This document shows positions 9,584 through 47,476 of a DNA stretch of 64,000 nt, piece after piece (position 1 is the stretch's first letter; each line of letters begins with the position of its first letter). Location of the stretch: positions 372,001 through 436,000 of the forward strand of contig JAJQRF010000002.1 of assembly GCA_021228405.1 (NCBI GenBank), given 5' to 3'. The notes below the pieces were generated by a model, which had not been told where the DNA came from, did no database searches, and saw only the letters and a program-made list of their open reading frames with translations. This stretch comes from Pyrinomonadaceae bacterium (GTDB lineage Bacteria; Acidobacteriota; Blastocatellia; Pyrinomonadales; Pyrinomonadaceae). Position numbers and translations under genes: made by a program.

Positions 9584-9602
9584 AAATATCGAAATTATTT
9601 AG

Positions 9603-10379: not shown

Positions 10380-10456
10380 TGGTGGCTGGAGAGTGACTTG
10401 AACACTCGACCTTGGGGTTATGAATCCCACGCTCTAACCAGCTGAGCTACCCAGCC
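10380..10456 (-). tRNA. tRNA-Met (CAT), elongator type
   Basis: The 77-base cloverleaf on the minus strand has acceptor GGCTGGG paired with TCCAGCC, D arm GCTC/GAGC, anticodon loop TTCATAA, T arm GAGTG/CACTC with loop TTCAAGT, discriminator A and an encoded CCA. The G1-C72 pair argues against the initiator type. The anticodon stem has an A-C mismatch next to the loop. CAT could also be a lysidine-modified tRNA-Ile, but the body looks like elongator Met. Confidence 0.92.
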
Positions 10457-10535
10457 AAACGGGAAACTTAAATTATAAAAGGATAAACAAAAAAATCAAG
10501 TGTTCGTGCACAAAACGTTGAGGCTTAACAAAAAG

Positions 10536-10568
10536 AACAGCGGCTGATTCGGGAAATCAACCGCTGTT
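10536..10568 (-). terminator. terminator downstream of the giant surface protein gene
   Basis: AACAGCGGCTGATT (10536-10549) pairs with AATCAACCGCTGTT (10555-10568) except for one mismatch; T-rich runs follow on both strands. Two more short perfect hairpins lie between it and the gene, at about 10573-10599 and at 10603-10619. The last one includes the stop codon. Confidence 0.8.
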
Positions 10569-10610
10569 TTTAGTTTACGGGAACTTTTTTCCCGTAAAGT
10601 TGGTGCGTTT

Positions 10611-13600
10611 TTAACGCACGACGATCGTCGGATCGCCGATCAAAAGCCACGTTTGTCTGACATACAGATCAGGCGTGTTCAATTTGCCCAAACGCAGGAT
10701 ATTGCCCAGACGCGGCGGTTTTTGTTGGAAAAGTTGCCCCGTGACATATTGGCTGACAGGAATTTGTCCGTCCAGAAATGTAACGGCTGAAGATGTCCAG
10801 ACGGCGACCGCGCCGTTTTCGGATTTCAGCATCGTTTCCGCCAAACTGTCGCCGTTTTCGCCGTGCGTGTAACCGTTCAGACAGGTCATAAACATATAGA
10901 ACGAAAGGTTTTGATTAGCCAGAATCGAAGCATCGTCGGCACGCAGAACGTTTGCATTTGTCCAGAGCGTCGGCGTTCCGTGTCCCGAATAGGTCACGAC
11001 GGTCGGACTTTCGTTGAATCTTTGCAGAATCTGCGAACGCATTTCCGCATCGGTCATCGTCGCCCGGCTGATAAGAGTCGAAGAAACATTGTTCGGCAAC
11101 GTATTGCGGACAATATTAATTCCCGTATCGAAGCCCGCATCGGAAACGAACAAATTCGATCTCTGCGTCGAACTTTGCTGATCGTAGCGAATCAATTTAT
11201 CGACAACCCGATCGGCTTCCGTTTGAGTAATGACCGGAATTCTGCCGAGCCCGATGTCTTCAACGCTGTCGTTGTTGAAATCGGCAAGCCACGCGTCGCT
11301 CGCGGTTTCCATCGAAAAAGTATCGACCATCTTCGTCGGAATCAGGTCACGATCAACGGTCGCCAGATAGCCCCGCATATCGTAGCTCGAATCGCCGAAC
11401 AGCAACGCAAACTGCGGTTTCGTCAGCCAGCCTTTCGCGGCTTGGAAGAATCGTTTGACGGCTTCGGGCGAATGTGCGCCAAAGGTGAATTCGTCATATA
11501 AATCTTCGACCAGAACAACTTTGGTCAACAATCCCTGACCATTGCGATGAGCCGCCAAACGTTCAGCCGAAGCTTTCAGTATTTTCGGCGTGATGATGAC
11601 AAAATCGGCACGGTTAGCCGCATTTTTCCAATCCGAAGGTTCGTTCGGCGCAACTTCCAAAACAGATTCGGCTTGCGAACTTCCGATCAAAAGCAGTTCG
11701 CGGTCGGTATTGGCAGGCATCAGATTGATACTGCGAATGCTGTTTGCCTTTTCAACCTCCGTTTCAAGCTGTTCGGAAACGGTTCCGTTGCGGATTTCAT
11801 AAATTTCGACAATATCCGACAGAAACTCGCTGACCTTCACGCTTTGTCCCGCCGGAACCGTGAAGCGCAGACGATTATTTTGCGCTTTGTATTGCCGCGC
11901 ATAGTTAAGACTGATCGAATCGACCACGCTGATGTCGGTGTTTCCGCCGACCGAACGAAGCACGATCTGATTTGCGCCTTCGCGGACGGACGACATCGGA
12001 ATATCGAAATCGAATTGCTGATTTGCATAAAGCGTGTAATTCACCGTTCCGAGATCGAGCTCGTTAAATTTGAGGCTGACCGAATGATCGGCGGTCGTTA
12101 AGCCCTGCAATTTAATGCTCAAACGCGCTTGTCCGTTCGGATCGGGATTATAAACCGTCAGATTTTGCGCGGTCGGTGCGCTTGCCATTATCAACGCGCC
12201 GAACCAATTTTCCGCTTCGCCGTTCAAAATGCCCGAAGCGTAAATTGTTTTATCCTGAAGTTTAGCCGTATTCGCAAAACTCGAAACGGTCGGCGTTTGT
12301 CCGATTCTTCCGCCTTTTACGCCTCTTACGCGCTGTCCGGCGGAATCGCCGTTGACGAGATAATAAACTTGTCGGTCGGTCGAAGGCGTATCCGTTCCGC
12401 GACCGAAAAATTCGATCGAATAATCGGAATTAATCTTGATCGGAACTTCGATGCCGTTTGCGAACAATTTCCAGTTCAGGAAGTTGGAATTTAAGTCGAA
12501 CCCCGAACTTTGAAGCTGTTCCGCCGAAACGCGATACCAACCGTCGTGATCGACCGAAATCTTCACGCCGTTTTGCGCCGCAATTTTCGCCTGAGCTTTC
12601 GCGTTCTTTTTCGGCTTTGCATTAACGGATGAATTTTCGATCAGATCGAACTGCCGCGATGAAGTGTTGGTTTCGTTTATTTCTGCAAGCAATTTTGAGT
12701 TGGTATTTTCGGAAATACCCGAAAACGTCAGTGTCGGAACGAACGCGCCGTGGAGATTGGCATTTCCTTCGAGGTCTAAGTCTTCCAGATAATAAACCGC
12801 ATCGGGCGTTCCTTTCGGGTCGAACCAACTGTAGCTGTCGCCTGTCGCCGCCGAGTTTGCGAGCGAACGAAGCGCACTTCCGGCGATCGGCGATGAAGTC
12901 AAAAGCTCGCGTTTTCCGTCTATCTCGCGGTAAATGTTAAAGCCGAGATTATCCGCTTCGCCGCCGGTCGTCCATTTCAATTTAACGCCGCCGTTGAAAT
13001 CGGCAAAGGCTTCAAAACTTGCCAGTTCGACCGATGTCGGTGGCAGGAAGAAACCGAAATCGACCGTCGGATTCGACGTTAGACCCGTCGAATTCGTAAC
13101 CGCCGTATTTCCTAAAGCTCCCGTATTTCCGGGTGTCATCGTGACCAATCCGCTGACCACGCGACCCGCAAAACTTCCGCTTCCGGGCGTTCCGTCATCG
13201 TTGTTGTCAACGTTATCGTCTGGATTTGTCGAACTCGGCGTGCTCGATGTTCCGCCGCTCGGAACGACCACGACACGATATTGTCCCGGAATCAATCCGC
13301 AGAATGAATAATTTCCGCTCGTATTGGTTTGCATTCCGTTCACGGCATCGTCCGAAGTTCCTAAAATTCCGTCCGCTCCGACCAAAATTTCGTTTCCGGT
13401 TGAATCGTAAAGCTGAACCCTGACACCGGGACTCGTCAATTCGCCCGCATTGAGAATTCCGTTATTACTGTTTCCGCCGCCGCCGTTGTCAGCCCAGACG
13501 GTTCCCGACAGACAGGTTCGGTAAAATCCGAAATCAACCGTCATATCGGATTGATTGTCGAGCGAACCTTGTCCCGAAGCCTGCACATCTGCTTCCGCCG

Positions 13601-25489: not shown

Positions 25490-25570
25490 CCATTGTCAGG
25501 GGGGAAAAAAGTTTGACAATGGAGAATAAAGTCTGACAATAGAGAATAAAGTTTGACAATAAAATCATCT
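25490..25570. repeat. three 20-bp tandem repeats with an inverted half-copy
   Basis: Units begin at 25511, 25531 and 25551, each with GT(T/C)TGACAAT followed by (G/A)(G/A)AGAATAAA in the first two. The third keeps GTTTGACAAT only. CCATTGTCAG (25490-25499) is the reverse complement of the unit core. These may be protein-binding sites; the TTGACA-like cores could also be repeated -35-like boxes. Confidence 0.75.
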
Positions 25571-25598: not shown

Positions 25599-25642
25599 TT
25601 AAAAAAATCCGGCGACTAGATCTAGTCGCCGGATTTTTTTAA
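25599..25642. terminator. 44-bp perfect palindrome, bidirectional terminator
   Basis: The arms 25599-25620 and 25621-25642 are exact reverse complements, with core CCGGCGACTAGATC. Seven A residues precede and seven T residues follow, so a terminator forms on both strands. It separates pilC (plus strand) from the AAA+ regulator gene (minus strand, ends at 25700). A loopless perfect palindrome of this length is unusual. Confidence 0.85.
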
Positions 25643-25699: not shown

Positions 25700-27034
25700 T
25701 TAGGAACGATTGATACCATATTTGTTCAAGTTTTTATAAAAAGTAGATCGGGGAATTCCTGATAATTTACTCGCTCTTACTATATTTCCGTTCGTTTTAT
25801 CTAAAGCCATCTGAAGATAAGATTTTTCTAATCTTTGGATTGCTTCATCCAGAGTTTCGTTGTCAGGGTTAAAAGATACCGAGCCGGATTGTTTTTTTTC
25901 TTTTATATAGACAGACTCCTGAAGTATAGCCTGGCTCAAAATATTATTAGTAGGATATGCGGCAGCTTTTCTTATAATACTCCTTAATTCTCTGACGTTT
26001 CCATACCAATGATAGGCAAATAAATCATCTAATCCGTTATCGGGTAAATTCAACGATGCTTTATGTTCTTGATTCCATTCATTAACAAAATATTCTGCAA
26101 GTAGGGGAATATCTGCCTTTCTTTCTCTTAGTTTTGGTAAGTCTATGGTCATTCCCTTGATTCTGTGATATAAATCAAGGCGAAATCGTTTTTCATCGCA
26201 TTCTATATCGAGATTGCGGTTTGTTGCCAGAATAATTCTTGCATTAATATTTTTCCATTTATTTCCTCCAACGGGACGAATTTTTTTTTCATCCAAAACT
26301 CGTAAAAGTTTTGCCTGTAAGTGCAAAGCCAGTTCACCTATTTCATCTAAAAAAATTGTTCCTTCTCCCGCGCTCGTTAATAAACCGTCGCGCCTTTTTG
26401 CATTTGTAAATGATCCCTGCTCGTGTCCAAACAATTCACTCTCAATTAATTCAGGGTTTAATTCGGCAATATTTATTGAAACAATTTCATTCAGCCTACG
26501 GTTACTTTGCCTGTGAATCTCTCGCGCAACCACCTCTTTTCCTGTTCCGGTTTCGCCTGTTATCAAAACATGTTCATTTAGAGGCGCAAGGGATGTAATA
26601 TCTTTATAAATCCTTTGCATCGGCTGTGTTGCGCCGATTAAATTACCGCATCTGGAAAGTTTAAAGTAGCGGCTCAGGATAAGTTGGGCTAAAATTCTCT
26701 CGGCTATGTGAAATGGAGTTTGGGATTCGGGTGCAATGATGTGAGTCGCCCCGCAATTGTATATTATTTTTCGATCTTGATTAGTGGTTTTTGAAGCACA
26801 AACGATCAAAGGAGTTTGTTCATCGATCAAATCGCGTAATTGCCTGGTGCGCTCTCCAATCGTCGAAACATCACGTTCAGAAGATACAAAAAAAGCTTCA
26901 CGACATCGGGTAATTTCAGACTTTTCACGCATTTGAGAATCAAATAAAACCGGATGAATATTGACCTTTTCTTCTCGGAGTCGATTTATGATCTCAGTTA
27001 GCGGAACTTCTTTAGAAGCAAATATTTTAATCAT
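25700..27034 (-). CDS. sigma-54-type AAA+ regulator with pseudo-receiver and altered GAFTGA loop
   Basis: Encodes 444 residues. Residues 1-125 resemble a receiver fold (IIYNCGATHIIAPES at the end) but lack the phosphoacceptor aspartate: the expected beta-3 end reads AFFVSSERD. The AAA+ domain has Walker A GETGTGKEVVAREIH, Walker B GTIFLDEIGELAL and an arginine-finger region FRLDLYHRI. The GAFTGA loop, which contacts sigma-54, reads GSFTNA. The C-terminus is a Fis-type HTH (NIVRASKLSGIPRSTFYKNL). It is the last gene of the island, 8 bases after the CHAT-like gene. It may control the island or its targets; whether it still works with sigma-54 is open. Confidence 0.85.
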   Translation of the reverse strand: MIKIFASKEVPLTEIINRLREEKVNIHPVLFDSQMREKSEITRCREAFFVSSERDVSTIGERTRQLRDLIDEQTPLIVCASKTTNQDRKIIYNCGATHIIAPESQTPFHIAERILAQLILSRYFKLSRCGNLIGATQPMQRIYKDITSLAPLNEHVLITGETGTGKEVVAREIHRQSNRRLNEIVSINIAELNPELIESELFGHEQGSFTNAKRRDGLLTSAGEGTIFLDEIGELALHLQAKLLRVLDEKKIRPVGGNKWKNINARIILATNRNLDIECDEKRFRLDLYHRIKGMTIDLPKLRERKADIPLLAEYFVNEWNQEHKASLNLPDNGLDDLFAYHWYGNVRELRSIIRKAAAYPTNNILSQAILQESVYIKEKKQSGSVSFNPDNETLDEAIQRLEKSYLQMALDKTNGNIVRASKLSGIPRSTFYKNLNKYGINRS

Positions 27035-27042
27035 TTTTCAAA

Positions 27043-28503
27043 TTACTCAGACAAAAAAATTTGCGGTTTGTATTTCTTTGTCAGGCTTTCCATATTTTCG
27101 CATTTCTGACGAAAGGCGGTTAAAATTTCTCTTTGATCAGCATTGGTTGTTATAGCTGCAGGAATAACGACCTCCGCTAATGACAGACAAAACTTCATAG
27201 AAACTTTTGAATTAAAACCTATAGCTGTTTTAACACCGGCTTTTACAAATTTTTTTGCAACATCTCTTGAGTTGCAGGAAAAGAAAAAGGATAATCCGAT
27301 CCACTTTCTTTTTCCTTTAAATGATCTTAACCATTCATTGGTTGCTTGATATAAACCGCCAAATTCTTGAAGACCTTTTTCATTGCCGTGTCCAAAATGA
27401 GTCCAAATTAATAAATCTTGCGGTATTGACGACAAATATTCATCCAGATTCTTTGGCGTTGCCGAAGGAAGGACATAAAGTGGGTAAATCTGTTTACCGA
27501 ACAAATTATGTATTGCCTGTGATGTTTGTGAATTAAGGAGATAATTATAAGAATGAAAATCGGATGGATCAAAACTGCTTGTCGTCAAACATTGTAATTT
27601 ATTTGACGGAAAAATTTCCTTCTTGAAGATATTCAAATTATTGTGACAAACTGATTCTTCTAATTCGTCGAAAGTAGAGTTAACCGACGGAATGCCAGCA
27701 GAAACAGGCACTGTAAATTGTGGAGCTAGTCTTTGCAAAAAATAGTGCAAATCACAAAAACCCGAAAACAACAGAACATCCGCATTCAAGTCGCGGGCAT
27801 ACTGTAGCAGATCGGGATTTGGATTGATTGAGCTTACGGCAAAAATGATTTTTGTTTTCGGACTCTCTCTGATTTTATGGTTAACTTGGTTTTTACAATT
27901 GAGCCAAAAACCATCCGTAATAACCATCAGATTAGAAGCATCACCGTTATCTTTCCTCAAAAAATTGCATAAAAAATCTTCTAATAATCCACAACTCAGT
28001 GGAATATAATACTCCCATTCGATATATTCATTTTTTAATTTATTCCAAATTACATTTCTCTGTCGTGAGTATTTTGCAAGTTCGATTAATTTATCAACAG
28101 GAATATCTAATAAGTCGTCATAGGACGATTCAAGATTGATCTGAAGAATATCATCTATACCGGAGTTGTTGATTATTTCAAACCACGGATTCAAAATTGC
28201 CTCGTTGACTACATATTGCGGTAATGTTCCCACTCTCCGGTCAATTACCAAATAAATCCTTGCTGAAAACCAAGTTTTTTGTTTAATTACTTTAAGATAC
28301 TCTTCCAACGTTTCACCTTCGAGCCACGGCGAAGAAAGAATTAAGAAAATTTCTAGTGAGCAAGGCTTGTGTTTATTTTTGGAATATTCAACTATTTTAT
28401 TTGAACATTCCCAATTACTACTATCGAACTGTTCAGTGAAATCAATCCATTCCCCGAACAATTTGAGTGAATTGCTGTATACAATTTTGACACCGATTTT
28501 CAT
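27043..28503 (-). CDS. CHAT/caspase-like putative protease
   Basis: Encodes 486 residues from ATG at 28503; an in-frame TTG at 28527 would add 8, and neither has a clear ribosome site. The N-terminal 340 residues are unassigned, with alpha/beta-type stretches (EIFLILSSPW, KIIFAVSSINPNPDLLQYARDL). The C-terminal 130 residues match the CHAT pattern: LLIWTHFGHG (His372), then WIGLSFFFSCNSRDVAKKFVKAGVKTAIGFNSKV (Cys410), the His-Cys dyad of caspase-fold peptidases followed by the typical 'aG...aig' strand. No membrane segment. It is fourth in a signalling operon, so cleavage triggered by a phosphorelay is the natural inference. Substrate unknown. Confidence 0.75.
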   Translation of the reverse strand: MKIGVKIVYSNSLKLFGEWIDFTEQFDSSNWECSNKIVEYSKNKHKPCSLEIFLILSSPWLEGETLEEYLKVIKQKTWFSARIYLVIDRRVGTLPQYVVNEAILNPWFEIINNSGIDDILQINLESSYDDLLDIPVDKLIELAKYSRQRNVIWNKLKNEYIEWEYYIPLSCGLLEDFLCNFLRKDNGDASNLMVITDGFWLNCKNQVNHKIRESPKTKIIFAVSSINPNPDLLQYARDLNADVLLFSGFCDLHYFLQRLAPQFTVPVSAGIPSVNSTFDELEESVCHNNLNIFKKEIFPSNKLQCLTTSSFDPSDFHSYNYLLNSQTSQAIHNLFGKQIYPLYVLPSATPKNLDEYLSSIPQDLLIWTHFGHGNEKGLQEFGGLYQATNEWLRSFKGKRKWIGLSFFFSCNSRDVAKKFVKAGVKTAIGFNSKVSMKFCLSLAEVVIPAAITTNADQREILTAFRQKCENMESLTKKYKPQIFLSE

Positions 28504-28538
28504 AGTTAAAGCAATTGGAAATACCAATGAGAAAAAGT

Positions 28539-30191
28539 TTATATTTTTCTGCTAAAGGGTAAAACTATTTTGATTTTATTTCCCATTTTTTCAATTAGGT
28601 CGTCAGAACATTCCGCTATTTGCCCCTGATATTTTTCTTCGATGAGTATTTGTGATAAATACAAAGCTAGATATAATCCGGGTTTGTGTTTTTCATCGAT
28701 GATAGGAACCGCCTGAGTAAATGGCTTAAACAAATCTTTGCGTAATTCTTTTGGAAAGCGGTAACTGTTATCTTCAAATATGATCGCTGACGTTTCATCA
28801 GTTTCAAAGCATTTAACCGTTATCGAGTATGTGTAATTTGCAGGAATTTCAAATTTACGCCGCACAAACCAATTTAATATTCGTAGAGTGATAAGCAAAA
28901 AGTCTTCTTTTGCACCTTTAATCTCACAATCGCCTTCAATGAAAAAGTTAATATTATTTAATTTATATTCCGAAGAGAGTTCTTCCCATGCAACTTTAAG
29001 CAATTCCGTCATCTGAAAAATTTCTAAATTTTCAGATGAATAGTTTTTATTGGAGATCGGTTCCAGAAGTCTGCCAGTTTGATATAAGTCTTCTGCTAAT
29101 GCTCTGATCGTCCGATATGTCGGATTTTCTAAATTCTCACCTGCTAAAGCAGCATTTTCAAGAATAAAAAGTTGTTCCTGTCCGACCTTTTGGCAAAAGG
29201 TCGCCATCTTATCGATCGTCGTTTTTCTTTCACTGTCATTTCTATGCCAACGGGCTATTATCTCGCTTAAAAAGGCGATGGCAGTCGGATTCACATACTT
29301 ATTTAATAATTTCCCTAATTCTTTAGGTGATTCCGAATAGGGTTCATTGCTATCTAAAAGACCGACCGTTAGACGAAAAGCTCCAGCTAGAGGCAATGAT
29401 AGAAAAACCGCATCCTCTAAACTTTTAATTTCGCTACCATTTAAGTTGCTTTTATCGGTTTTGAGAAGACCAATCATTGATTCGTCTAATATGAACGGCT
29501 CTGAAATGTCGGCATTCGTAAACATAAAAGATAATATCTGCTCATAAACTATATCTTCTCCAAACGGCAAATTTGCCGTTCCTCCCAGACAATTTTGGGC
29601 GTGTAACGGTTCGGTAAGACTGTTGATTCTCGAAAGCAGTAACAGAAAAGGTGTCCCCAAACAGGCTCTGAATTCCTCTCCAAGAATTTCCCGACAGAAA
29701 TTTTCGTAAAGCTCAGTTTCAGTTTGACTTACCTTTACGACTTTCTCTATTTTATCCGCCAGATTTTTACTGTTGGATAAAGTCCTTTTTATAGACAGGG
29801 CGCGAAGGTGAGTGATAATTTTTTCATCCGGACTATCGCTTTTTCGTAAATACGAAGCGACACCTAATTTGAGGGCTTTTTCATAATATTCCAATATGTG
29901 TGGATAAGCCGTAAAAATTATAACTTCCGGCTTCATAAAATCGCTTCGCGTTATATTTTTTTGAAAATATTCTATAATCAGGTCTGCGCCGGTAACGCTT
30001 CCCGCGAGCGGATCTTTCTCGAGATTCATATCTACCAGACATACATCGAAATCCCCCTCACCATTAAGTATTTCTCGGGCTTTTTTGACGGTTCCGGCAA
30101 CATCTACTAAAAAGCCTCGCGATTCGAGCTTCATTCTTATTCCGTCCGTCGATCTATCCTCAATAATTAAAAATCTTTTAGTCTTTTTCAT
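28539..30191 (-). CDS. response regulator with receiver domain and degenerate GHKL-type C-terminus
   Basis: Encodes 550 residues. Receiver domain 1-130 is complete: E11/D12, phosphoacceptor D54 (CLVDMNL), T94 (FTAY) and K117 (YLRKSDS). A middle region of about 250 residues is unassigned and helical. The C-terminal part resembles a histidine-kinase ATPase fold (LLITLRILNWFVRRKF, EDNSYRFPKELRKDLFKPFTQAVP, GLYLALYLSQILIEEKYQGQI) but lacks the N-box asparagine pattern and DxGxG, so ATP binding is doubtful. AAGGA lies upstream of the ATG. It is probably phosphorylated by the upstream kinase; its output may be binding to the CHAT-like or AAA+ protein. Confidence 0.8.
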   Translation of the reverse strand: MKKTKRFLIIEDRSTDGIRMKLESRGFLVDVAGTVKKAREILNGEGDFDVCLVDMNLEKDPLAGSVTGADLIIEYFQKNITRSDFMKPEVIIFTAYPHILEYYEKALKLGVASYLRKSDSPDEKIITHLRALSIKRTLSNSKNLADKIEKVVKVSQTETELYENFCREILGEEFRACLGTPFLLLLSRINSLTEPLHAQNCLGGTANLPFGEDIVYEQILSFMFTNADISEPFILDESMIGLLKTDKSNLNGSEIKSLEDAVFLSLPLAGAFRLTVGLLDSNEPYSESPKELGKLLNKYVNPTAIAFLSEIIARWHRNDSERKTTIDKMATFCQKVGQEQLFILENAALAGENLENPTYRTIRALAEDLYQTGRLLEPISNKNYSSENLEIFQMTELLKVAWEELSSEYKLNNINFFIEGDCEIKGAKEDFLLITLRILNWFVRRKFEIPANYTYSITVKCFETDETSAIIFEDNSYRFPKELRKDLFKPFTQAVPIIDEKHKPGLYLALYLSQILIEEKYQGQIAECSDDLIEKMGNKIKIVLPFSRKI

Positions 30192-30213
30192 TTTACTGTT
30201 GTCCTTATCTTAA

Positions 30214-33200
30214 TTAAATTTTTACCGCTTTAGGGAAACCTAATCTAAACTCTGTATGACCGGCTTTCGATAATTTCAATTCTATGTGACTGCCGTTTTC
30301 AACCAAGCTTCTTTTAACTAAGTACAAGCCCCAGCCTGTTCCGTTGGATTTTGTAGTTACACCAAAATCGAAAATATTATGTTGTATTTCCATAGGGATT
30401 CCGTTTCCGTTATCGGTGAAAATACAGACAATCGAATTTTCTTCTTCTCTTGCATCAATTTGAATTAACCGTTTGTCGGATTCACAGAATTTCAGAGAAT
30501 CTTTCGCATTACCTATTAAATTGGCAAGTGATAAAGCAACAATGTGAAACGGAACATCTATTGTATACTTAGGATCTAAGTTTATTTTTATTTCAATTCC
30601 GTTTTCAGTTAAGATCGAATGGAACAAGTTTTCACAATCTTCAGCCGCCTTCAATAAAGAGCAAGGTCGTTCACTGCTAAAGCGGGTAAAATCGATTATT
30701 GCATTCGTAAGCTCAAGCATTTTCTCACTCGAAGCGGATAAATCATCAATCAACTTTTCATACTCAGCAGTTTTTTTCATCGCCGTATTTGCATCCTTAT
30801 CCATTGCGCATAATTTACCGTATAGAATAGCTTCGTGTAAGGTTGAAAATCCGGACTCACGCTCACGCATCATATTAATAAGCTGGTGCATGATAGTCGC
30901 GCTGGTAATAGATGTAGTTAACATTACCTGATAATTGATATTTTCAAGATGTTTTTGTTGAGCTTGCAGTTTAGTAAGCACTTTAGCGGCAAGATCGCCT
31001 AATCTTAGCAAGTAAATTTTCCAGGGCGATTCAAAACTTAACTCAAAACCGAAGCGTGGATTTTGAACGCCGAACCAAAGCATTTCATCGCGCTGAGGAA
31101 GACGTAGTGTAATTATGTGATGAGTGTATGTATCTTTTACAGGATTTGCACAAAGAACTTTGTTTTCCTGCATTGTGAGGATTTCCCAATTAGCTTTAAC
31201 AAGTTGAATGTGTTCTTCTTTACCGAGAAAATCGCCCATATTTTCCGGATTTGTTCCGACGGTCCAGAATAATTCCGCTTCTGAAGCAGATTTTTTTATT
31301 GTTCTGAACCAATCATTGATGGAGAGCGGTTCCCGACTCAATTCCAAACCTAACTGATTTAAGTTTTTATTCAGATAATAACCAGCCGAATTTACAATAG
31401 TATCGGAAACGACGGCAGCTATAGCCCGCCGATTTTGTGAATAAACCCCCAAAGTCGGAAAAGCTAAATCGTCTTCATCTTTTTTAATAAGTAAGTGCAT
31501 TCTGCCGAAAGGTCGCTGGACTTCGATCTCATCGCTTTCTTTCATCTGCACCTCTAGTGTTGATGACTTTACCTTCAAATTTTTATCTTGTGATATATAG
31601 GTCTTCTTGTTGAAATTCTTGCGATGTAAATCAATTATGTCTTCCAAATCGTCTTTGTATTCCGGTGCGGAAATGTAATATTCCTTTATCTGAAACCCTA
31701 TATCGCCCTTAATCACAATCCCCAAAGGAGATAGAATTTCGTAAATATTCTCGGTAATTTTCACTATCGTGTCCGAACCGTTTTTTAGCCCATTGCCTTG
31801 CAATTTAGCGCATTGATAAGTCGCCTCTTCGAGAGCCATCGCTTCGCGGTGAGTTTGAACAATTATCGAGATTCTTTCCGCGTAATGAAACAATTGCTGA
31901 ACAACGACGGTCATTTGAGCGGCAAATTCGTTCATCTCTGCTTCCAAACAACCTATGATTGCCCCGTTATATAAAATTCGCGACCTGACCTGACATCTTT
32001 TAAGTTTATTAGTAAATAAGAATTTCGACTTGGTAAAAATAAACTTTATTAAAGATTCGCCGTCGTTTTTCTCGGGCAATTCATTTTCGAACATTTTCTT
32101 TATCTCGGGAAAGTTCTTGAGCGGTTTGCGGGAATTATTATGTTTAGCAGACTTACTCCATTTTATTACTAAAACTTCAGAAGCGTTCACTTTCGGGAGT
32201 CTGATATACAAAGTTACGGACTCGGCGTGCAATCCCTCTCCGATAGCACGTGAAACACTATCACCTGTAAGAAAAGGCTTTCTTCGATAATTGACTTCGT
32301 TAACCGTATCTCTGACGTATCGAAAAATTTCCAAGCCCCTGTAAGACAAATAGTAGATCGCCAAAAATAAAAAAAGATTGCCTGCCGAGGAAATATAATA
32401 CAGACCGTTTCGATACGGTTCGATCGAAGCCATATCAGGCAAAATTTCAGTTGCGTTGAAAATCACGATCGCTAACTGAGTACAAACACACCAGGGAAAG
32501 ACTATGCCGCACATATATGATATTAGGTTTCTTTTAAGGAAAAAGAGATTCATTGATAAAGCAATCCCCAGAAAAAACAGGCTGGCAACCGTAAGAAGAG
32601 CATCCGGTATCATAGAAGCTATTCTCAGTATTTCGCAGTTGTCAGGAAAAAACAGTGCGGCGGCGGAAATCACTAGTGCGGAGGTTCCCCAAATCTTAAA
32701 AGCAGAAGGCAATCGTTTTACCTGATGATAAAACGAAATTAAAATCTGTTCGTAAATTGAGTTGAAAATCTTACATATAGTCGCGAGAACACCTATCCTT
32801 TCGTCCTTACTCTTCTCAATATCATCTTTATCCTCCTGACTTTCAACCTTTTTTTCTTCCGGTTTCATATTTTTCCCGAATAGTTCAAAGGTTGCCAATA
32901 ATACCAACCAGTTATTTACAACGGACAAGCCAATGGTAATGAAGCTGATAATCTTTTCGATAATGAAATAACTTGTAGGCGTAATATATTGGTAAACTTC
33001 CTGTTTCGGAACTTGTTTCTCAAAAATGATTCTATTTGCTTCGTTTATATCCGCAATATAATTAAGACCTGCAAATAAGAAACTCATCAGAGCAAATGTG
33101 GCAAAAAACCAGCCTAAGAGTCGAACCCACCGCCCCGGAATCAATACTCGAGAATTGGTATAAAGAGTTAAAGCACAAATCAAATAGCCCGTGCCTACAA

Positions 33201-33222
33201 TTATCTGAATATTAGAATCCAT
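30214..33222 (-). CDS. polytopic membrane sensor histidine kinase
   Basis: Encodes 1002 residues. The start at 33222 has AGGAAGGA eight bases upstream inside the end of the previous gene; the frame runs open to 33273. About eight membrane helices occupy residues 5-330. Then come GAF-like regions (to about 760), an unusual dimerisation helix with candidate phosphoacceptor His779 (ATIMHQLINMM), and an HATPase domain with N box LIGNAKDSL (N905), G1 TDNGNGIP, F box FDFGVTTK and G2 GTGWGLY. It therefore looks catalytically competent. It likely senses a membrane or envelope signal and phosphorylates the next protein. The ligand is unknown. Confidence 0.85.
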   Translation of the reverse strand: MDSNIQIIVGTGYLICALTLYTNSRVLIPGRWVRLLGWFFATFALMSFLFAGLNYIADINEANRIIFEKQVPKQEVYQYITPTSYFIIEKIISFITIGLSVVNNWLVLLATFELFGKNMKPEEKKVESQEDKDDIEKSKDERIGVLATICKIFNSIYEQILISFYHQVKRLPSAFKIWGTSALVISAAALFFPDNCEILRIASMIPDALLTVASLFFLGIALSMNLFFLKRNLISYMCGIVFPWCVCTQLAIVIFNATEILPDMASIEPYRNGLYYISSAGNLFLFLAIYYLSYRGLEIFRYVRDTVNEVNYRRKPFLTGDSVSRAIGEGLHAESVTLYIRLPKVNASEVLVIKWSKSAKHNNSRKPLKNFPEIKKMFENELPEKNDGESLIKFIFTKSKFLFTNKLKRCQVRSRILYNGAIIGCLEAEMNEFAAQMTVVVQQLFHYAERISIIVQTHREAMALEEATYQCAKLQGNGLKNGSDTIVKITENIYEILSPLGIVIKGDIGFQIKEYYISAPEYKDDLEDIIDLHRKNFNKKTYISQDKNLKVKSSTLEVQMKESDEIEVQRPFGRMHLLIKKDEDDLAFPTLGVYSQNRRAIAAVVSDTIVNSAGYYLNKNLNQLGLELSREPLSINDWFRTIKKSASEAELFWTVGTNPENMGDFLGKEEHIQLVKANWEILTMQENKVLCANPVKDTYTHHIITLRLPQRDEMLWFGVQNPRFGFELSFESPWKIYLLRLGDLAAKVLTKLQAQQKHLENINYQVMLTTSITSATIMHQLINMMRERESGFSTLHEAILYGKLCAMDKDANTAMKKTAEYEKLIDDLSASSEKMLELTNAIIDFTRFSSERPCSLLKAAEDCENLFHSILTENGIEIKINLDPKYTIDVPFHIVALSLANLIGNAKDSLKFCESDKRLIQIDAREEENSIVCIFTDNGNGIPMEIQHNIFDFGVTTKSNGTGWGLYLVKRSLVENGSHIELKLSKAGHTEFRLGFPKAVKI

Positions 33223-33227
33223 AAAAT

Positions 33228-34568
33228 TTATCCTTCCTGTTTCCAAGTATCTGAATTCGACCCTATTTGCCAACTAGCCAGAGTAACAACAGGATTATTC
33301 CATTCATTAAGTCCGGCGTGAACAACATCGGTTTGCGAATCATTTTTGATCCGGACAAAAGTCGGGCGTAGAAATCCTTTATCCGTCCCCGTTTCCAGTT
33401 CCACTAAAAAATCTTCCCAACTTTCCACAGAGTCTTTACTATTCGGAAGACATAGTAATCTTCCCCAAGTCCCGCTATTCAAATACAAACCTTTTCCGTC
33501 TTTGACAAGGTAAATTTTCGCCGAGTGCGTATGTCCGTGAACTACTGCCGATATTTGTTGCGAGTCGATGTATTTATTTAAGAAATCAGACTTAAACTTG
33601 TTTCTTTCCGGGACTTCGATAGCAAATGAAGAATCCTGCTCCGAAACGGTTTTTAATTGTTTGATCAATTTTCTTAAATCTTTTTTCGTCGATGTTCCGG
33701 GATTATTAATCTCTTGATTGCGCCAGACTGAAAATTCATCGGTCAGATCGGCATGGTGATATGTATCCCCTAAGATCATTTCACTATGTAAAGTCATAAT
33801 TAAATTTCTTTTCAACCAATTGGTTCCAGCGGAAATTCCATTAAGCAATACTTTCTGCAGCATTCGACGTTGTTCAATGTTTAGCTCTTGCCGAGCAAAC
33901 GTCCAAGCCAACGGGAAAGTCGCTTCGGTAATCGGTTTCAGAAGGTCTATCCAAGGATATTTCTTACGTAGGGGATTTAGATTTTCTACCAGATAGCTTC
34001 CGGGAGGCGCGTTATAAGAGTCGTTTTCAATCAAACGGCTTGAGTAATTTATCGAATTTTGGAGTTTTCCGTAATCAATTCTGTTCCAATCGTCGAATAA
34101 ATCTCCGTGTTCAATTAAAATGCACTTTTTTCCAACACTAACCGTTAGTGCATTTCCACTTACTAGCCAGCGAATATTCGGAGAAAAATTATTCAGCCTT
34201 AATCTGTCTTCAAAAACTGCCTGAACTTCAGGTAAGGCAACTTCAGGATCGTGATTGCCGCCGAGAATAAAGAGTTGATGTCTGTTTGAGTTGGTAATTT
34301 TGGCTAACGCATCGAAGACTTCGGGATGATTTTCGATAATTTTTATAGCTTTCTGAGATGATTCTTTTAGGGAAGTAATTTCACCTCCATTTTCTCCGAC
34401 CAGAAAATCAAATATGTCGCCATTAAGAACCAAAAAACTGTCTTTGGCTTCTGAATATACCCAAGTTAAAAATTCAGCCAGTTCAGAATCCGCTCGAAAT
34501 AAGCCGCAATTTCTTTCAGCAGCCAGATGCAAATCACTAATAACTATTAAATCTGATGTTTTTCTCAT
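33228..34568 (-). CDS. calcineurin-like metallophosphoesterase
   Basis: Encodes 446 residues. All hallmark motifs are present: VISDLHL (DxH), LNGDIFDFL (GD), LGGNHDPE (GNHD) and VVHGHTHSAKIYL (GHTH), which bind a dinuclear metal centre. A long insertion between GNHD and GHTH (about 200 residues) sets it apart from UDP-2,3-diacylglucosamine hydrolases and Mre11. No signal peptide, so cytoplasmic. It is the first gene of the five-gene island, 5 bases before the kinase start. The substrate (nucleotide second messenger, nucleic acid or phosphoprotein) cannot be told. Confidence 0.85.
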   Translation of the reverse strand: MRKTSDLIVISDLHLAAERNCGLFRADSELAEFLTWVYSEAKDSFLVLNGDIFDFLVGENGGEITSLKESSQKAIKIIENHPEVFDALAKITNSNRHQLFILGGNHDPEVALPEVQAVFEDRLRLNNFSPNIRWLVSGNALTVSVGKKCILIEHGDLFDDWNRIDYGKLQNSINYSSRLIENDSYNAPPGSYLVENLNPLRKKYPWIDLLKPITEATFPLAWTFARQELNIEQRRMLQKVLLNGISAGTNWLKRNLIMTLHSEMILGDTYHHADLTDEFSVWRNQEINNPGTSTKKDLRKLIKQLKTVSEQDSSFAIEVPERNKFKSDFLNKYIDSQQISAVVHGHTHSAKIYLVKDGKGLYLNSGTWGRLLCLPNSKDSVESWEDFLVELETGTDKGFLRPTFVRIKNDSQTDVVHAGLNEWNNPVVTLASWQIGSNSDTWKQEG

Positions 34569-34940
34569 AACAAGTCTTTAGCAAATTCTGATGCTTCCAA
34601 TGACTATCCTGCTCAGGTAGCGTTTTTCATTAAAAAGATTTTATCTATTAACAGTTTTACTTCAGAAAAAAGGCGGAAAATTTTTTCTTCAAAAGTTCCA
34701 GTCCTCATCTATCCTTTATTTTCTATAGTGGACTAAGCACTTGTTATGCCAGTATTGAATTTCTATGCTTTAAGACAGACTTCTATCCTCACTATGTTCA
34801 AATACAGAGATTTTATGTTTCTAAAATGAACATATTGACCAGAAAACTTGTAATCTTCACCTTTGCGGGAAACTCTTTAAGCAATGTTGTGTTATAGGTG
34901 TGATTCTCGATTTTATATTTTTCGTCCTTTTTATAGGTTT
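34569..34940. other. 372-base AT-rich intergenic region upstream of the island
   Basis: It separates the island from the lipase-like gene; both are on the minus strand. It should hold the island promoter, but I find no convincing -35/-10 pair or sigma-54 site on the minus strand. Short similar phrases (TCTATCCT twice, near 34710 and 34790) recur. No open reading frame of note and no terminator with a T tract are seen. Confidence 0.4.
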
Positions 34941-37187
34941 TTAGTTAAAAATAAAAACTACGACCGCAATCTCGGATTCTTCAATTTCCTGACTTTCCAA
35001 CTTTAATTTCCAAACGCCTTTTTGAAAAGGTTTATCCGTTTCGAGCAGCCGAAACGCTTGTTTGGCTTCGGGCGTTCCCGTCAAACTTTGCGAAACGATC
35101 GCACCGTTTTGTGTAGAAAGCGTCGCGGAAACTTTGTTCGGCATCATTAGATTGATCGCCAGACGCTTGCCGTCCGTCACGGGAATTTCGATCTCGGTCG
35201 TTTGATTCGGTCTGAGTTTGATGCCGGTTGCAAAAGACGGTTCGGAGCTTTCCAGATCGTTTCTGACCTGAAGCGGAACATCGAAATTCGCGGGCTTGTA
35301 GCTTGCGCCGTAATTTCGCCGATTCGGGGAAAAATCATCAAACGTTTCGTCGGTCAAACTGCCCGTCACCGCGTCGATGTCAGGCTTGTGATTTCCCTTC
35401 GGACTGACCGCGAGCCATTGGTGAACGACTTTCATATTTGCCGTTTCGCCGAGCATAAATTCGTGTGTCGAAGGTGCAGTCGTATATTTGAAATTTTTGA
35501 GAAAATCCCTGCTCTGCCATAATGCCGAACCTGCCGGAACGAGTCCGTCGCCGAGCGTAGTCAGTTGACAGGTTTTGTTGTAGCCGTGTCCGACCAAGCC
35601 GTAGAATTTCGTGCCTTTCGTCGCAGTATAACGGCGATTGAATTCCTGCATATTGTTGTATGTGATCTCACGAAAAGCTTCGCCGCTGCGGTTGAAAAAG
35701 CGTGAAATGATATTATCGACCCCGACCGAACACGGCGTTCCTCTATTCGGCGTGCCGACCATAACGAAATTCGTGACGGTCGGTTTCCCGTCGGCAAGCT
35801 GTCCCATCGAATCGTTGATATAAACTCTGCCCGCCAAACCGCCCGTCGAATGTCCGACCAGATCGACGTGCCACGCGTTCGTTCTTTCCTGCATTTCCCT
35901 GATTCTTTTTTCGACTTCGGGCGCATTTTCAGCCGCGCTTTTGCTCGGCAGAATTCGCGCGTAATCGACCGCCCAATGCGCCGATTTCATATTTTCAAAG
36001 TAGCTTAGAAACTGCGAAAAAGAATATTTGTCCGTCCACATTCCGGGAATTACGATGACGGGTTTCGGACGGACTTCGATGTTTTCGGTGCGTGAATCTT
36101 CCGTAATTTTGACCTGTATCTGCCGATTTATCTCGGGCTGATTCAGTTCGCCCGATTCCTTCCACGCATAGCCCGACGTGTCCCACATATAAACGATCTC
36201 TTTTTCCTCGTTCGCATCGACCGAGATCGGCATTTTGCCTTCGGGCAGAAGCGCGTTTTCCTTGAGTTCACGAACTTCGAGCGACGTTTGTCTGGTTTCG
36301 CCCGAAAGATTGGCGATCTTGGCGACGACTTTCACGAAATTTCCGTCGACCGTGTAATTATTGATTTTTATCCAATTGTTGTAGGTCGGATGAAGCGGCT
36401 GATAAAGTTCGACCTCGGTAATCATCAAAGGCGCGCCGCATTTTTGCAGCGACCAGCTCATCGTTTCTTCCATTCCGCTAATGCCCTTCTGCGTAAAACT
36501 TCCTGAAAGACGATTCGGATTTTTCGGGTCGATGCGGTGCGAACCGTCCGAGATCAGAGAATTTCCGCTGATCGAAGTTTCGGTCGGCGGCATTTTTTCA
36601 TCAACGCCTTTCTTGTTCGTGCATTGTCCGCTGAAAGATGAAGTAAAAGAACCTTGCTTTTCGCCGCGAATCGGCGAAAAAGCGACCGAAACGTTATAAG
36701 TTCCGTCATCGTTAATGCCGACCGTCACGTTTCCTTCCGCGTTAGCATCGTTTCCTTCGATCCTGGTCGTGGTCGCAAACTTTCCCGTCTGCGTCCGCCA
36801 GGTTTTTCCACGGTCGCACGAAACTCTTTCTTTTGAAGAAGTGTTTTCTTCGGACGTTAATTTGGAGCTAACGGCGGCTTTGACCTTCGTCGAACCGTCC
36901 TTTTCCGCCGTTTCCGTCACGAGCGCGCGACCTTTATATTCGTAGCGCATCTCGCTCACGGTCGAATCTTCGCCGCCTGCCGCACCTGAAATTCTGGGCG
37001 TAGTTTTGGCTTCGCCCGAAACTTGCGTCCGCGAATACTTGACGCTGCCGACCCACGCGCCCGAACATTTTTTGACGGCAGGTTTCGTTTGCACGGTTTT
37101 CTTTTGTCCGAAAATCATCGAATTCGTAAAACTGAAAATAATTGCTAAAACTGTTAATTGTTTGAAAAAATTTGATCTGCTCTGCAT
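34941..37187 (-). CDS. secreted alpha/beta hydrolase, lipase or PGAP1-like
   Basis: Encodes 748 residues with a signal peptide (QLTVLAIIFSFTNSMIFGQ). The N-terminal 260 residues form beta-rich repeats with cysteines. A bacterial-type beta-sandwich (MITEVELYQPLHPTYNNWIKINNY) follows. The hydrolase domain begins at KPVIVIPGMWTDKYSFSQF, the usual oxyanion region, and has nucleophile motif DLVGHSTGGLAGRVYI (GHSxGG). Candidate Asp and His lie in LGDGLVPAGSALW and STHEFMLG. The C-terminal 130 residues are a beta-sandwich with no obvious anchor. A secreted esterase or lipase is likely; the substrate is unknown. Confidence 0.8.
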   Translation of the reverse strand: MQSRSNFFKQLTVLAIIFSFTNSMIFGQKKTVQTKPAVKKCSGAWVGSVKYSRTQVSGEAKTTPRISGAAGGEDSTVSEMRYEYKGRALVTETAEKDGSTKVKAAVSSKLTSEENTSSKERVSCDRGKTWRTQTGKFATTTRIEGNDANAEGNVTVGINDDGTYNVSVAFSPIRGEKQGSFTSSFSGQCTNKKGVDEKMPPTETSISGNSLISDGSHRIDPKNPNRLSGSFTQKGISGMEETMSWSLQKCGAPLMITEVELYQPLHPTYNNWIKINNYTVDGNFVKVVAKIANLSGETRQTSLEVRELKENALLPEGKMPISVDANEEKEIVYMWDTSGYAWKESGELNQPEINRQIQVKITEDSRTENIEVRPKPVIVIPGMWTDKYSFSQFLSYFENMKSAHWAVDYARILPSKSAAENAPEVEKRIREMQERTNAWHVDLVGHSTGGLAGRVYINDSMGQLADGKPTVTNFVMVGTPNRGTPCSVGVDNIISRFFNRSGEAFREITYNNMQEFNRRYTATKGTKFYGLVGHGYNKTCQLTTLGDGLVPAGSALWQSRDFLKNFKYTTAPSTHEFMLGETANMKVVHQWLAVSPKGNHKPDIDAVTGSLTDETFDDFSPNRRNYGASYKPANFDVPLQVRNDLESSEPSFATGIKLRPNQTTEIEIPVTDGKRLAINLMMPNKVSATLSTQNGAIVSQSLTGTPEAKQAFRLLETDKPFQKGVWKLKLESQEIEESEIAVVVFIFN

Positions 37188-44940: not shown

Positions 44941-45756
44941 TCAATCCGCGCCGACACTCTCAACACGTAAAAAGTCTGCGGCGATAAAATTCTTTCTCCA
45001 CATTTGCCAGACATTTTCAAAATCTTTCGCGTCAAATCCAAATTTGTAGACAGTTTGATCTTTGGCTTCGGCAACTGATTCACCGTCGCGAAGTTTTTCG
45101 AGGAAAAAATATTGAGCCGGATTTATTTCCAACAAATTCAGCCGAAAATTGTAACGGCTGACGGTGCAGAAGCTCGTTTCTTCAAACGGCAATTCCGGCT
45201 CGTTTTTATTGACGACATCGAGATAATATCGGCAAACGGGGTATGTGTGGCGAAAGAGATGGAAAACGGGAATGAGTTTTAAGGATTCGTCGGTCGTGGA
45301 ATCATCCGCCAAAACGATCTTTTCGTCGGCGTGTTCGTCAAAAATTATCGACAGCGAATATTCAAAATTCGCCAGTTCGATCATAAAATCGATCCACGAT
45401 TCTTTTTCTGCGGAACCTGCGTCGGGACGAGTTTCCTGAAGATGCGCGGCGAAATTTTTGCCGAGGTCGTTTAATGTGTAACTGCCGGAAGGATATGCTT
45501 CCAGATATTGATCGGCAAACATTTGAAACAAATCTTCGCCGAGCGCGAAAGCGAGCGCGCTGAACTGGTTTTTCATACAATCGCGCAGACGCGCAATGTA
45601 GCTTTGCCGATAAATCCGCAAATGCCTTTCCGCGCTCAAACGGCTCGAATCGTTGACAAAATCCGCCGTGTTTGCCGAATCGAATTCGGGCGAAACTAAA
45701 ACGGATTGCATCCAATTTTGAATTTGTGCGAGATTTTTCTGAGTGTCTGTCGGCAT
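44941..45756 (-). CDS. DUF2063 protein (HvfC/BufC-like, MNIO partner)
   Basis: Encodes 271 residues. The first half has the DUF2063 pattern: LAQIQNWMQSVLVSP, then SAERHLRIYRQSYIARLRDCMKNQFSALAFALGEDLFQMFADQYLEAYPSGSYTLNDLG. In bufferin and methanobactin-like systems such proteins are the partner that delivers the precursor peptide to the DUF692 enzyme. It begins 5 bases after that gene here, so the pairing is clear. No signal peptide; cytoplasmic. It is the last gene of the four-gene locus. Confidence 0.85.
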   Translation of the reverse strand: MPTDTQKNLAQIQNWMQSVLVSPEFDSANTADFVNDSSRLSAERHLRIYRQSYIARLRDCMKNQFSALAFALGEDLFQMFADQYLEAYPSGSYTLNDLGKNFAAHLQETRPDAGSAEKESWIDFMIELANFEYSLSIIFDEHADEKIVLADDSTTDESLKLIPVFHLFRHTYPVCRYYLDVVNKNEPELPFEETSFCTVSRYNFRLNLLEINPAQYFFLEKLRDGESVAEAKDQTVYKFGFDAKDFENVWQMWRKNFIAADFLRVESVGAD

Positions 45757-45761
45757 AAAAT

Positions 45762-46709
45762 TCAGCGGTTCAGTTCATATGAAACGTCCGTTACCAGAAA
45801 ATCGAGCGGATTGGAAACGCCGTCGGATTCTGATTTTTTATGCGTTTCAAAATTTCGTATTTCAGGCAAATCATTCATAAAATCCTTTGCTTTTAGAAGT
45901 TCGGAATGGTAAACGTCGAAATCGGGAATGTTGCTGTCCCATTCAAGCAAAACCGCCGCGCCGTTCGTTAATTTCCAAGCGAGTGAAAAAAGTTGCCAGA
46001 CTTGCGGCGCGACAAAATTATCGTGCGTGTCGATGATATAATCGCCGCAATTCTGATGTCCGGCGAGGTGCATTTGAACGATCTTTTCGTGCGGCAAATT
46101 TTCGATATAATGCGCCGCGTCGAAGTCGTTATTGAACGATGAAACATAGACATTATTTACGTCGAGCAAAATTCCGCAACCCGTTTCTTCCGTCATCAAA
46201 CGCAAAAAATCCCATTCGTTGATCGTGGATTGTTTGAAGCGCAAATAAGTGCTCGGATTTTCAAAAACGAGCGGTCGCCCGAGAAAATCCTGCGCCTGAT
46301 CGATCTTTTTGCAGACGTGTTTGAGCGATTCTTCGGTGAGCGGCATCGGGAGCAGATCGTGCGAATTAAGACCATTTATGCCTGTCCAGCACAGATGATC
46401 GCTGATCCACAACGGATTTATTTCCGCCGCCAGATTTTTGAGTTTGGTTAAATATTCAAAATTCAGATCGTCTGCACTGCCGATGGAAAGCGAAACGCCG
46501 TGCATTACGACCTTGTAGCGTTCGGCGATCCGGCGGAGAACGTTTTTCGGTCTGCCGCCGGAATCCATAAAGTTTTCCGAGATGATCTCGAACCAATCGA
46601 CTTCGGGCTTATTTTCCAGAATGTCGTTAAAGTGTTTGCTTCTGAGTCCCAGACCAAAGCCCGGATTCGGAAAATCCTTAACGCATTCCGGCGAAGTTTT
46701 TTTGTTCAT
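45762..46709 (-). CDS. DUF692 multinuclear non-haem iron enzyme (MNIO, MbnB/BufB-like)
   Basis: Encodes 315 residues, the usual family length, a TIM-barrel. Metal-ligand motifs are present in order: VVMHGVSLSIGS, WISDHLCW, LVFENPSTY, ILLDVNNVYV, VQMHLAGHQ, IDTHDNF and LLEWDSNIP. Family members oxidise cysteines of ribosomal peptides (oxazolone/thioamide in methanobactin, thiooxazole in bufferins) using a multi-iron centre. Here the likely substrate is the cysteine-rich protein encoded just upstream. The gap before it (134 bases) holds a palindromic repeat. Confidence 0.92.
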   Translation of the reverse strand: MNKKTSPECVKDFPNPGFGLGLRSKHFNDILENKPEVDWFEIISENFMDSGGRPKNVLRRIAERYKVVMHGVSLSIGSADDLNFEYLTKLKNLAAEINPLWISDHLCWTGINGLNSHDLLPMPLTEESLKHVCKKIDQAQDFLGRPLVFENPSTYLRFKQSTINEWDFLRLMTEETGCGILLDVNNVYVSSFNNDFDAAHYIENLPHEKIVQMHLAGHQNCGDYIIDTHDNFVAPQVWQLFSLAWKLTNGAAVLLEWDSNIPDFDVYHSELLKAKDFMNDLPEIRNFETHKKSESDGVSNPLDFLVTDVSYELNR

Positions 46710-46760
46710 TATTTTGAGATTTTATTTTAGGAAGCGAACAAATAGAACATATTTATTACT

Positions 46761-46836
46761 CCACAGATGAACACAGATTCGTTTTAATTGATAAAATCAA
46801 ATTCTTTTACCCGTGTCTATCCGTGTTCATCTGTGG
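46761..46836. repeat. dispersed palindromic repeat, copy 2 (CCACAGATGAACAC family)
   Basis: CCACAGATGAACACAGAT (46761-46778) faces ATCCGTGTTCATCTGTGG (46819-46836) across a 40-base spacer. The arms match copy 1 near 7363. It lies between the cysteine-rich protein gene and the DUF692 gene. Confidence 0.8.
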
Positions 46837-46843
46837 ACGGTTT

Positions 46844-47476
46844 TTATTTATTATTTGCTGTCCCGCACAAATGCGGTTCGCTTTTTTCGCACAGTTCTTT
46901 CGCGTCTTCGGCGGGATTGTTGTAGCCGAAACTGCAATATTTATTGCCGCTGTTGCCGCACGAATCGTAACTGCCTAAACTTTCGACGAGCCACGCTTGC
47001 GGGGGTCCGCATTTATACGGCGACGGTCCGAAATTGCGATTGGCTTTTTTCATCCGTTCTTCAAACAATTTACGCGCCAAAACCCAAACGCTCTTGCCCG
47101 TATTTTCGCCCTGCGTGCTGTAGCGTTCCGCCTGAATCGGAACGGCACAGCTTCCCTGCCACGCACAATCGTTGTTGCCGGGATTGCTCTGTTCTTCGCC
47201 GTCGCCGTATAAACCGCAACCGCCTTGATTACGGCAATTGTTCAGCGTGTGGCAGTTATGCTTCTGTGCGGTCGCGCATAAACCCATTCCGGCGCATTCG
47301 TTCGTGCCGTAGCGGTCGTGTCCTTTGCAGGCATTCAAACCCATACAGACGTGCAGTTCAATCGGCGTTGGAACGACCGTGCCGGACGAAGGCGGAGCCG
47401 GCGCAGGGGTCGAACAACCGCCGCCGCAACCGTTACTGCTTCCGAGATTTTCGATTTTCGTTGATTTTTTGCTCAT
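46844..47476 (-). CDS. 16-cysteine protein, candidate MNIO substrate (RiPP-like precursor)
   Basis: Encodes 210 residues, 16 of them cysteine. A short leader-like start (MSKKSTKIENLGSSNGCGGG) and a Pro/Ser-rich linker precede CMGLNACKGHDRYGTNECAGMGLCATA, HNCHTLNNCRNQGGCGLYG, then CAWQGSC. A helical stretch (SVWVLARKLFEERMKKA) and four further cysteines follow to the end. There is no Sec signal, unlike true bufferins. The C..G..AC.G spacing recalls bufferin cores. It lies 5 bases after the ferritin-like gene. It could also be a metal-storage protein or an enzyme subunit. Confidence 0.65.
   Translation of the reverse strand: MSKKSTKIENLGSSNGCGGGCSTPAPAPPSSGTVVPTPIELHVCMGLNACKGHDRYGTNECAGMGLCATAQKHNCHTLNNCRNQGGCGLYGDGEEQSNPGNNDCAWQGSCAVPIQAERYSTQGENTGKSVWVLARKLFEERMKKANRNFGPSPYKCGPPQAWLVESLGSYDSCGNSGNKYCSFGYNNPAEDAKELCEKSEPHLCGTANNK

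Follow-up and report, generated by a model that had tools for sequence, protein, structure and literature searches.

A conserved five-gene operon encoding a histidine kinase, a putative receiver-pseudokinase, a CHAT-like protein, a sigma-54 activator and a phosphoesterase: a probable stress or anti-virus alarm circuit

The locus described here encodes a calcineurin-like metallophosphoesterase (gene A), a membrane histidine kinase (gene B), a receiver protein with a predicted pseudokinase moiety (gene C), a CHAT-like protein (gene D) and a sigma-54 activator (gene E), and it recurs in other genomes as a conserved unit with a patchy distribution. The operon probably serves as a stress or anti-virus alarm circuit. 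We tentatively favor, with slightly less than even confidence, a self-contained module, of the conflict or stress-response type, that combines signaling with effectors and in which the signal would pass from kinase B through C and D to activator E. If this chain holds, histidine-aspartate phosphotransfer would control a caspase-like protease, and the most common bacterial signaling chemistry would thereby be linked to a protease fold that functions in cell death. To our knowledge, no earlier bacterial system is known in which such control is exerted.

Organization and boundaries of the locus

The sequence under study (hereafter the window) is a 64,000-nucleotide stretch of the genome of a Pyrinomonadaceae bacterium (G000). 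According to the list of its open reading frames, the region from position 25700 to 34568 comprises five genes, all on the minus strand, with predicted intergenic gaps of 8, 35, 22 and 5 bp when ATG start codons are used (Table 1); the alternative TTG start of gene B would lead to an overlap with gene A. The GC content of the operon amounts to 37.3%, as compared with 47.8% for the remainder of the window. The strong palindromic terminator lies between the operon and pilC, which is convergent with it, and serves both. The coordinates, composition and RNA folding thus agree with the initial annotation, which had described five minus-strand genes separated by 5-35 bp, their location in an AT-rich island and a 44-bp bidirectional terminator. 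Just 3' of pilC, three near-tandem copies of a unit of about 20 bp (AGTTTGACAATGGAGAATAA) are found at positions 25503-25565.

Table 1. Coordinates and supporting evidence for the features of the operon and of the related plasmid units
Feature	Coordinates	Strand	Evidence and remarks
Gene A, metallophosphoesterase (MPE)	33228..34568	-	446 aa; Pfam PF00149, E 4.4e-9
Gene B, membrane histidine kinase (HK)	30214..33222 (alternative TTG start 33273)	-	1002 aa from ATG; HATPase_c, E 2.7e-12
Gene C, putative receiver-pseudokinase (REC)	28539..30191	-	Pfam Response_reg, 1e-6; weak HATPase_c
Gene D, CHAT-like protein	27043..28503 (alternative TTG start 28527)	-	486 aa from ATG
Gene E, sigma-54 activator	25700..27034	-	444 aa; Sigma54_activat (PF00158), E 1.1e-59; HTH_8 (PF02954), E 9e-10
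Bidirectional intrinsic terminator	25599..25642	.	A/T-tailed perfect palindrome of 44 bp; RNA folding energy -29.6 kcal/mol (z -9.6)
Candidate sigma-54 promoter TGGCATAACAAGTGCT, upstream of gene A	34736..34751	-	Score 20 of 24
Inverted repeat TCAATATGTTCA-N26-TGAACATAGTGA, possible enhancer site for gene E	34789..34838	.	Seen in window copy
Two-gene MPE-CHAT unit without HK or REC, proteobacterial plasmids	L114 (NZ_CP099612.1) 5114-8586; L115 (AP028202.1) 7959-11506		

The lipase gene at positions 34941-37187 was considered as a sixth member of the operon and rejected: it has a host-like GC content, its product has a signal-like N-terminus, and a gap of 372 bp separates it from gene A. Moreover, no lipase gene adjoins the other operon copies, with a lipase flanking only the MPE relative in G051:C174. 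Downstream of pilC, a comparison with relatives that could represent the empty site yielded no clean insertion boundary, because this region varies among them and often carries pilS/pilR.

Conservation and distribution of the gene set

A profile search with the REC protein across the 162 genomes of the class (class, family and phylum denote the groupings of the genome collection used) retrieved four full-length copies in addition to that of the window, and a CHAT profile matched 5 of the 162 genomes, exactly the five that carry REC. The complete order MPE-HK-REC-CHAT-sigma54 is found in the window, in G350, which represents another genus of the same family, and in G378, a member of another family, and thus in three genera and two families. 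The copy in G265 consists of HK-REC-CHAT-sigma54 and lacks the phosphoesterase; that in G051 is reduced to HK-REC-CHAT, without genes A and E, and its HK gene is preceded by a gene for a trypsin-like protease (a label assigned by inspection, the only Pfam match being a weak one to Nal1_C). Outside the phylum, a CHAT copy occurs on a contig from the Planctomycetota (G845), where the very next gene is an orthologue of gene E (38-46% identity). Since the five proteins of the relatives share 23-45% identity with those of the window, the gene order has been kept over a long divergence.

The five genes, which the initial annotation had treated as one set, are therefore found together elsewhere, in the same order in three genera and as partial sets in G265, G051 and the Planctomycetota contig. 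The diversity of their domain types could be taken to indicate unrelated genes that are adjacent by chance, but the order preserved across two families at low sequence identity, together with the short gaps, already refutes this explanation, to which we assign a negligible probability.

When the REC profile was searched across the phylum, 130 genomes matched at E<=1e-10; outside G000, G051 and G378, these matches cover the receiver domain only, although absence is weakly indicated because the best three candidates per genome were scored. A contig search with the REC alignment, driven by generic receiver motifs, likewise returned receiver-domain matches only. No copy of the operon was found in 237 genomes from the phylum to which a Polyangiaceae genome belongs, in plasmids and phages searched with the REC, CHAT and HK proteins, or in one scan of viral contigs. 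A match in another planctomycetotal genome (G1121) was rejected as an operon member; it represents a different, CHAT-STAND-type protein.

The composition and surroundings of the copies bear on their function. In three of the five genomes, the GC content of the operon is host-like; in the window and in G051, it is clearly more AT-rich than its surroundings, which fits horizontal spread. Inspection revealed an integrase fragment upstream of the G265 copy and a PIN-domain-like gene near the G378 copy, both of which are weak as signs of defense. The window copy is located outside any defense island, with no PADLOC match among the ten flanking genes tested. The defense-island context and the function in defense or programmed cell death considered by the initial annotation are thus unsupported so far, and a pure stress circuit fits nearly as well. 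In such a stress-response circuit without killing, the kinase and the CHAT protease would only gate the sigma-54 activator through regulated proteolysis of the DegS/RseA kind, the phosphoesterase would adjust a nucleotide or lipid precursor, and the target genes would lie elsewhere in the chromosome. We regard this explanation as quite possible, if short of probable, and as nearly as likely as a conflict or defense role. Ordinary signaling would account for a membrane sensor that has a GAF region and for a transcription activator, and the lack of a defense island in the window and the host-like composition of most copies point the same way. On the other hand, the patchy presence of the operon within the class, the AT-rich islands in two genomes and the plasmid-borne MPE-CHAT pairs described below look like mobile accessory modules.

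An intact kinase and a receiver fused to a predicted pseudokinase

Gene B encodes a protein with five to six predicted hydrophobic segments (based on hydropathy) and a GAF-like region, for which a GAF match was obtained in three of the five orthologues. In its DHp domain, His779 is part of an HQxxN motif, and the N, G1 and G2 boxes are intact in all copies, with H779, N905, D937, G939, G963 and G965 invariant in the alignment.

The product of gene C matches Response_reg in all five copies and HATPase_c in four of them (Pfam). Its phospho-acceptor Asp54 and Lys117 are invariant, and it has no DNA-binding domain. The C-terminal ~200 residues align with the kinase core of gene B over 194 columns (hhalign probability 93%, E 3.4e-7), yet this core is degenerate, lacking the DHp histidine and the N-box asparagine and showing altered G boxes. 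Profile comparison revealed no similarity between the middle region and the GAF regions of the kinases. By these sequence features, gene C is a receiver fused to a pseudokinase.

These assignments largely bear out the earlier family labels: Pfam identifies the phosphoesterase, the histidine kinase, the receiver and the sigma-54-type AAA+ protein, the CHAT label is probably right for a divergent protein, and only the description of gene C as a receiver falls short. The proposed phosphorelay is likewise supported by the retention of the catalytic residues in both kinase and receiver. The degenerate kinase core of C, the acceptor-less receiver-like N-domain of E and the plasmid MPE-CHAT pair had escaped that first reading.

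A divergent CHAT-like protease

The gene D product is composed of two parts, a separate N-terminal domain and a putative CHAT-like protease domain of the caspase fold at its C-terminus, which show no similarity when compared with each other. Every one of the five full-length copies has His372 and Cys410, in positions that fit the CHAT pattern of a histidine in (G)HG and a cysteine ending the next core strand. The window copy has no Pfam match, TPR included, and PF12770 matches weakly in two of the five members (best E 0.05). When the gene D profile was compared with 12 CHAT domains encoded in the genome of the window, hhalign gave an E-value of 1e-4 and a probability of 57%, with C410 placed on the CHAT cysteine; four unrelated alignments gave E-values of 0.1 or worse. 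A single-sequence structure model (pLDDT 43) was too low in confidence for use. Taken together, the CHAT label is probably right, though the protein is divergent.

In the Planctomycetota copy (G845; L112 3-1276), the protein is split into an N-domain reading frame and a CHAT-domain reading frame that overlap by ATGA, and a tyrosine occupies the column of the catalytic histidine. The genome of the window has a large CHAT repertoire, with 16 CHAT-domain matches; because such proteins are so common there, a CHAT protein alone is no sign of defense.

A sigma-54 activator without a phospho-acceptor

Gene E codes for a complete AAA+ sigma-54 domain with Walker motifs and for a Fis-type helix-turn-helix. 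In the window copy, GSFTNA replaces the GAFTGA motif, which its relatives retain as GAFTGA or GSFTGA, and this change might impair the contact with sigma-54. The N-domain co-aligns with the receiver of PilR, but none of the five orthologues has kept the phospho-acceptor aspartate or the lysine. Because the domain went undetected as a receiver when profiles alone were compared (E 0.38), the term "degenerate receiver" reflects how the alignment is read; a single-sequence structure model of this domain reached a pLDDT of 50.

Since Asp54 is kept in C and the acceptor is lost in E, the receiver open to phosphorylation and the activator of transcription are two different proteins; wherever a copy has both REC and sigma-54 activator genes, these flank the CHAT gene. 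Either the intervening protease carries the signal from one to the other, or the chain is broken. Systems of the NtrC/PilR family likewise combine a histidine kinase, a receiver and an AAA+ sigma-54 activator. The operon differs from them in that the phospho-receiver and the activator reside on different proteins with a protease gene in between, and in that the receiver-like domain of the activator lacks the acceptor.

It is conceivable that the operon represents a diverged two-component system of the PrsK/PrsR type (XrtA/PEP-CTERM) or another NtrC-family system for surface polysaccharide or pili. Such an origin could explain a partial PrsR match of gene E (270 bits), a weak PrsK match of the gene B kinase core (27 bits), and the positions of the window copy next to pilT/pilC and of the G265 copy upstream of pilS/pilR-like genes. 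These scores are far below the curated NCBIfam cut-offs of 502.6 (PrsR) and 300 (PrsK), however, the other operon copies are not near pil genes, E lacks a phospho-acceptor, and CHAT and phosphoesterase genes are foreign to these systems, all of which makes this explanation very improbable.

Upstream of gene A, the sequence TGGCATAACAAGTGCT scores as a sigma-54 site in the window (p about 0.01 against dinucleotide shuffles), and the corresponding intergenic region of the G350 copy contains TGGCATAGCTAATGCT (p 0.16). The site is a suggestive candidate for a sigma-54 promoter.

The phosphoesterase and its pairing with caspase-fold proteases

Gene A encodes a calcineurin-like enzyme with an LpxH-like core and a subfamily insertion (PGSxLV..LRKxYPW..LLKP), whose DxH, GD, GNHD, EHGD and GHTH motifs are all intact in the alignment. 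Full-length orthologues are confined to G378 and G350; the gene is absent from two of the five loci (G051 and G265), and distant relatives exist in G301, in G051 and on plasmids.

On plasmids of Methylobacterium and Paraburkholderia, genes for distant relatives with 25-33% identity immediately precede a canonical CHAT gene, the two genes being a few base pairs apart or overlapping. A bona fide CHAT gene adjoins the phosphoesterase gene in all seven plasmid records that were read (one from Methylobacterium and six of seven from Paraburkholderia), although the latter count as about one independent case because they are close relatives of one another. In G301, the phosphoesterase relative adjoins a C25-like caspase-fold protease, and a second locus of G051 places it beside a lipase and a protease/AAA gene. 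The pairing of this phosphoesterase with a protease thus recurs without the kinase. The plasmid pair shares with the operon the phosphoesterase subfamily and the CHAT gene that directly follows, but it is devoid of kinase, receiver and sigma-54 genes, and its CHAT protein is of the canonical PF12770 type. PADLOC returned only a partial SAVED_CHAT match for this unit, which may be an undescribed defense pair.

Two of these neighborhoods contain further genes. Adjoining the pair on the Methylobacterium plasmid (L114 9186-13275), we observed a CARF6-like gene, an ORC-CDC6-like ATPase gene and a second phosphoesterase gene with a wHTH-calcineurin-associated domain, followed by a Dam methyltransferase gene. 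The second locus of G051 (L084 1-6126) encodes, in one run, a WD40-repeat AAA protein, a protease-AAA protein, the phosphoesterase relative and a class-3 lipase, an arrangement that resembles described NTP-dependent conflict systems.

Relationship to known systems and a possible mechanism

In Detocs, the receiver and the effector are joined in one protein. The operon has a receiver fused to a predicted pseudokinase instead, with separate CHAT and phosphoesterase genes as the presumed effectors, and a stand-alone receiver gene is absent from all five loci. Detocs, a three-gene defensive two-component family (PMC11249213), likewise encodes a kinase and a receiver together with effector-type enzymes. 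The operon could therefore be seen as a Detocs-like defense system in which the phosphoesterase acts as a nucleotide-destroying effector and the CHAT protein as a regulator, given that a kinase, a receiver and a nucleotide-type hydrolase are present. We consider this improbable in view of the different receiver architecture and the loci that lack the phosphoesterase altogether. The initial annotation had named Detocs as the closest idea, though one with different parts.

No system with this gene set was found under any name in PADLOC, NCBIfam or the open-licence literature, consistent with the earlier impression that it had not been described. In PADLOC-DB 2.0.0 (2023), genes A, C and D have no match, and strong matches are limited to the AAA domain of gene E, which resembles RtcR/PspF-type CARF regulators. 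Caspase-fold peptidases and calcineurin-type phosphoesterases recur as effectors in bacterial conflict systems (PMC7159879, PMC8195603). Caspase/trypsin peptidases and calcineurin-type effectors are shared with MoxR-vWA (VMAP, iSTAND) and other NTP-dependent conflict systems (Kaur et al., 2020, 2021). Unlike the operon, these are built around a MoxR-vWA, STAND or GTPase core, none of which was detected in the operon by Pfam or in the other loci by inspection, and no histidine kinase was found by the authors among the vWA-associated effectors (PMC7159879).

An analogy for the coupling of protease and transcription is offered by Craspase/CASP (type III-E CRISPR: Cas7-11, the TPR-CHAT protein Csx29, Csx30 and CASP-sigma), in which a CHAT protease is likewise encoded with a transcription-initiation factor and controls it by cleaving a sigma-factor inhibitor (PMC10028731). 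Its trigger is the binding of a guide-RNA target, and the factor it controls, an ECF sigma, has an inhibitor of its own, whereas the operon would be triggered by a histidine kinase and has a sigma-54 activator. By inspection, no cas-like gene such as would accompany Cas7-11 with TPR-CHAT is present among the neighbors of the operon.

In the module that we tentatively favor, kinase B would detect an insult to the envelope or the cytoplasm and phosphorylate Asp54 of C, the relevant residues being intact in both proteins. The pseudokinase half of C would then change its state and activate the CHAT protease D by direct contact, and D would probably relieve E by cleaving it or by displacing its N-domain. 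We infer the latter step because D adjoins E in every copy that contains E and by analogy with Craspase; E itself is likely beyond the reach of phosphorylation because its receiver-like N-domain has no acceptor. The predicted contacts between C and D and between D and E are based on gene order and domain logic. Once released, E could drive the promoter upstream of gene A, thereby establishing a positive feedback, as suggested by one candidate site. Finally, D and A may act as effectors, either harming or arresting the cell or clearing a nucleotide signal, an effector role proposed for this pair because distant phosphoesterase relatives are paired with CHAT genes. It is tempting to go further and envisage a new immune or cell-death circuit, in which a phosphorelay switches on a caspase-fold protease by contact through a receiver-pseudokinase and the protease, in turn, unlocks a non-phosphorylatable sigma-54 activator and forms an effector pair with the phosphoesterase. 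We deem this stronger version rather unlikely.

Probable RiPP-type gene clusters in the sequences analyzed

Several clusters of another kind were observed in the sequences analyzed. Upstream of the G350 copy (L043 2608-5110), a gene for an astacin-like protease with many LKF[RS]DDP repeats is followed by one for an MvdD-type ATP-grasp ligase; the two have the appearance of a graspetide (RiPP) pair whose precursor is fused to a protease. Within the window, positions 44941-47476 encode a DUF692/MNIO-like protein, a DUF2063-like partner and a small Cys-rich protein and, as judged by inspection, probably constitute a bufferin-type RiPP cluster. A similar pair, consisting of an MNIO gene and a gene for a Cys/Gly-rich protein, is located at L033 16424-18692.
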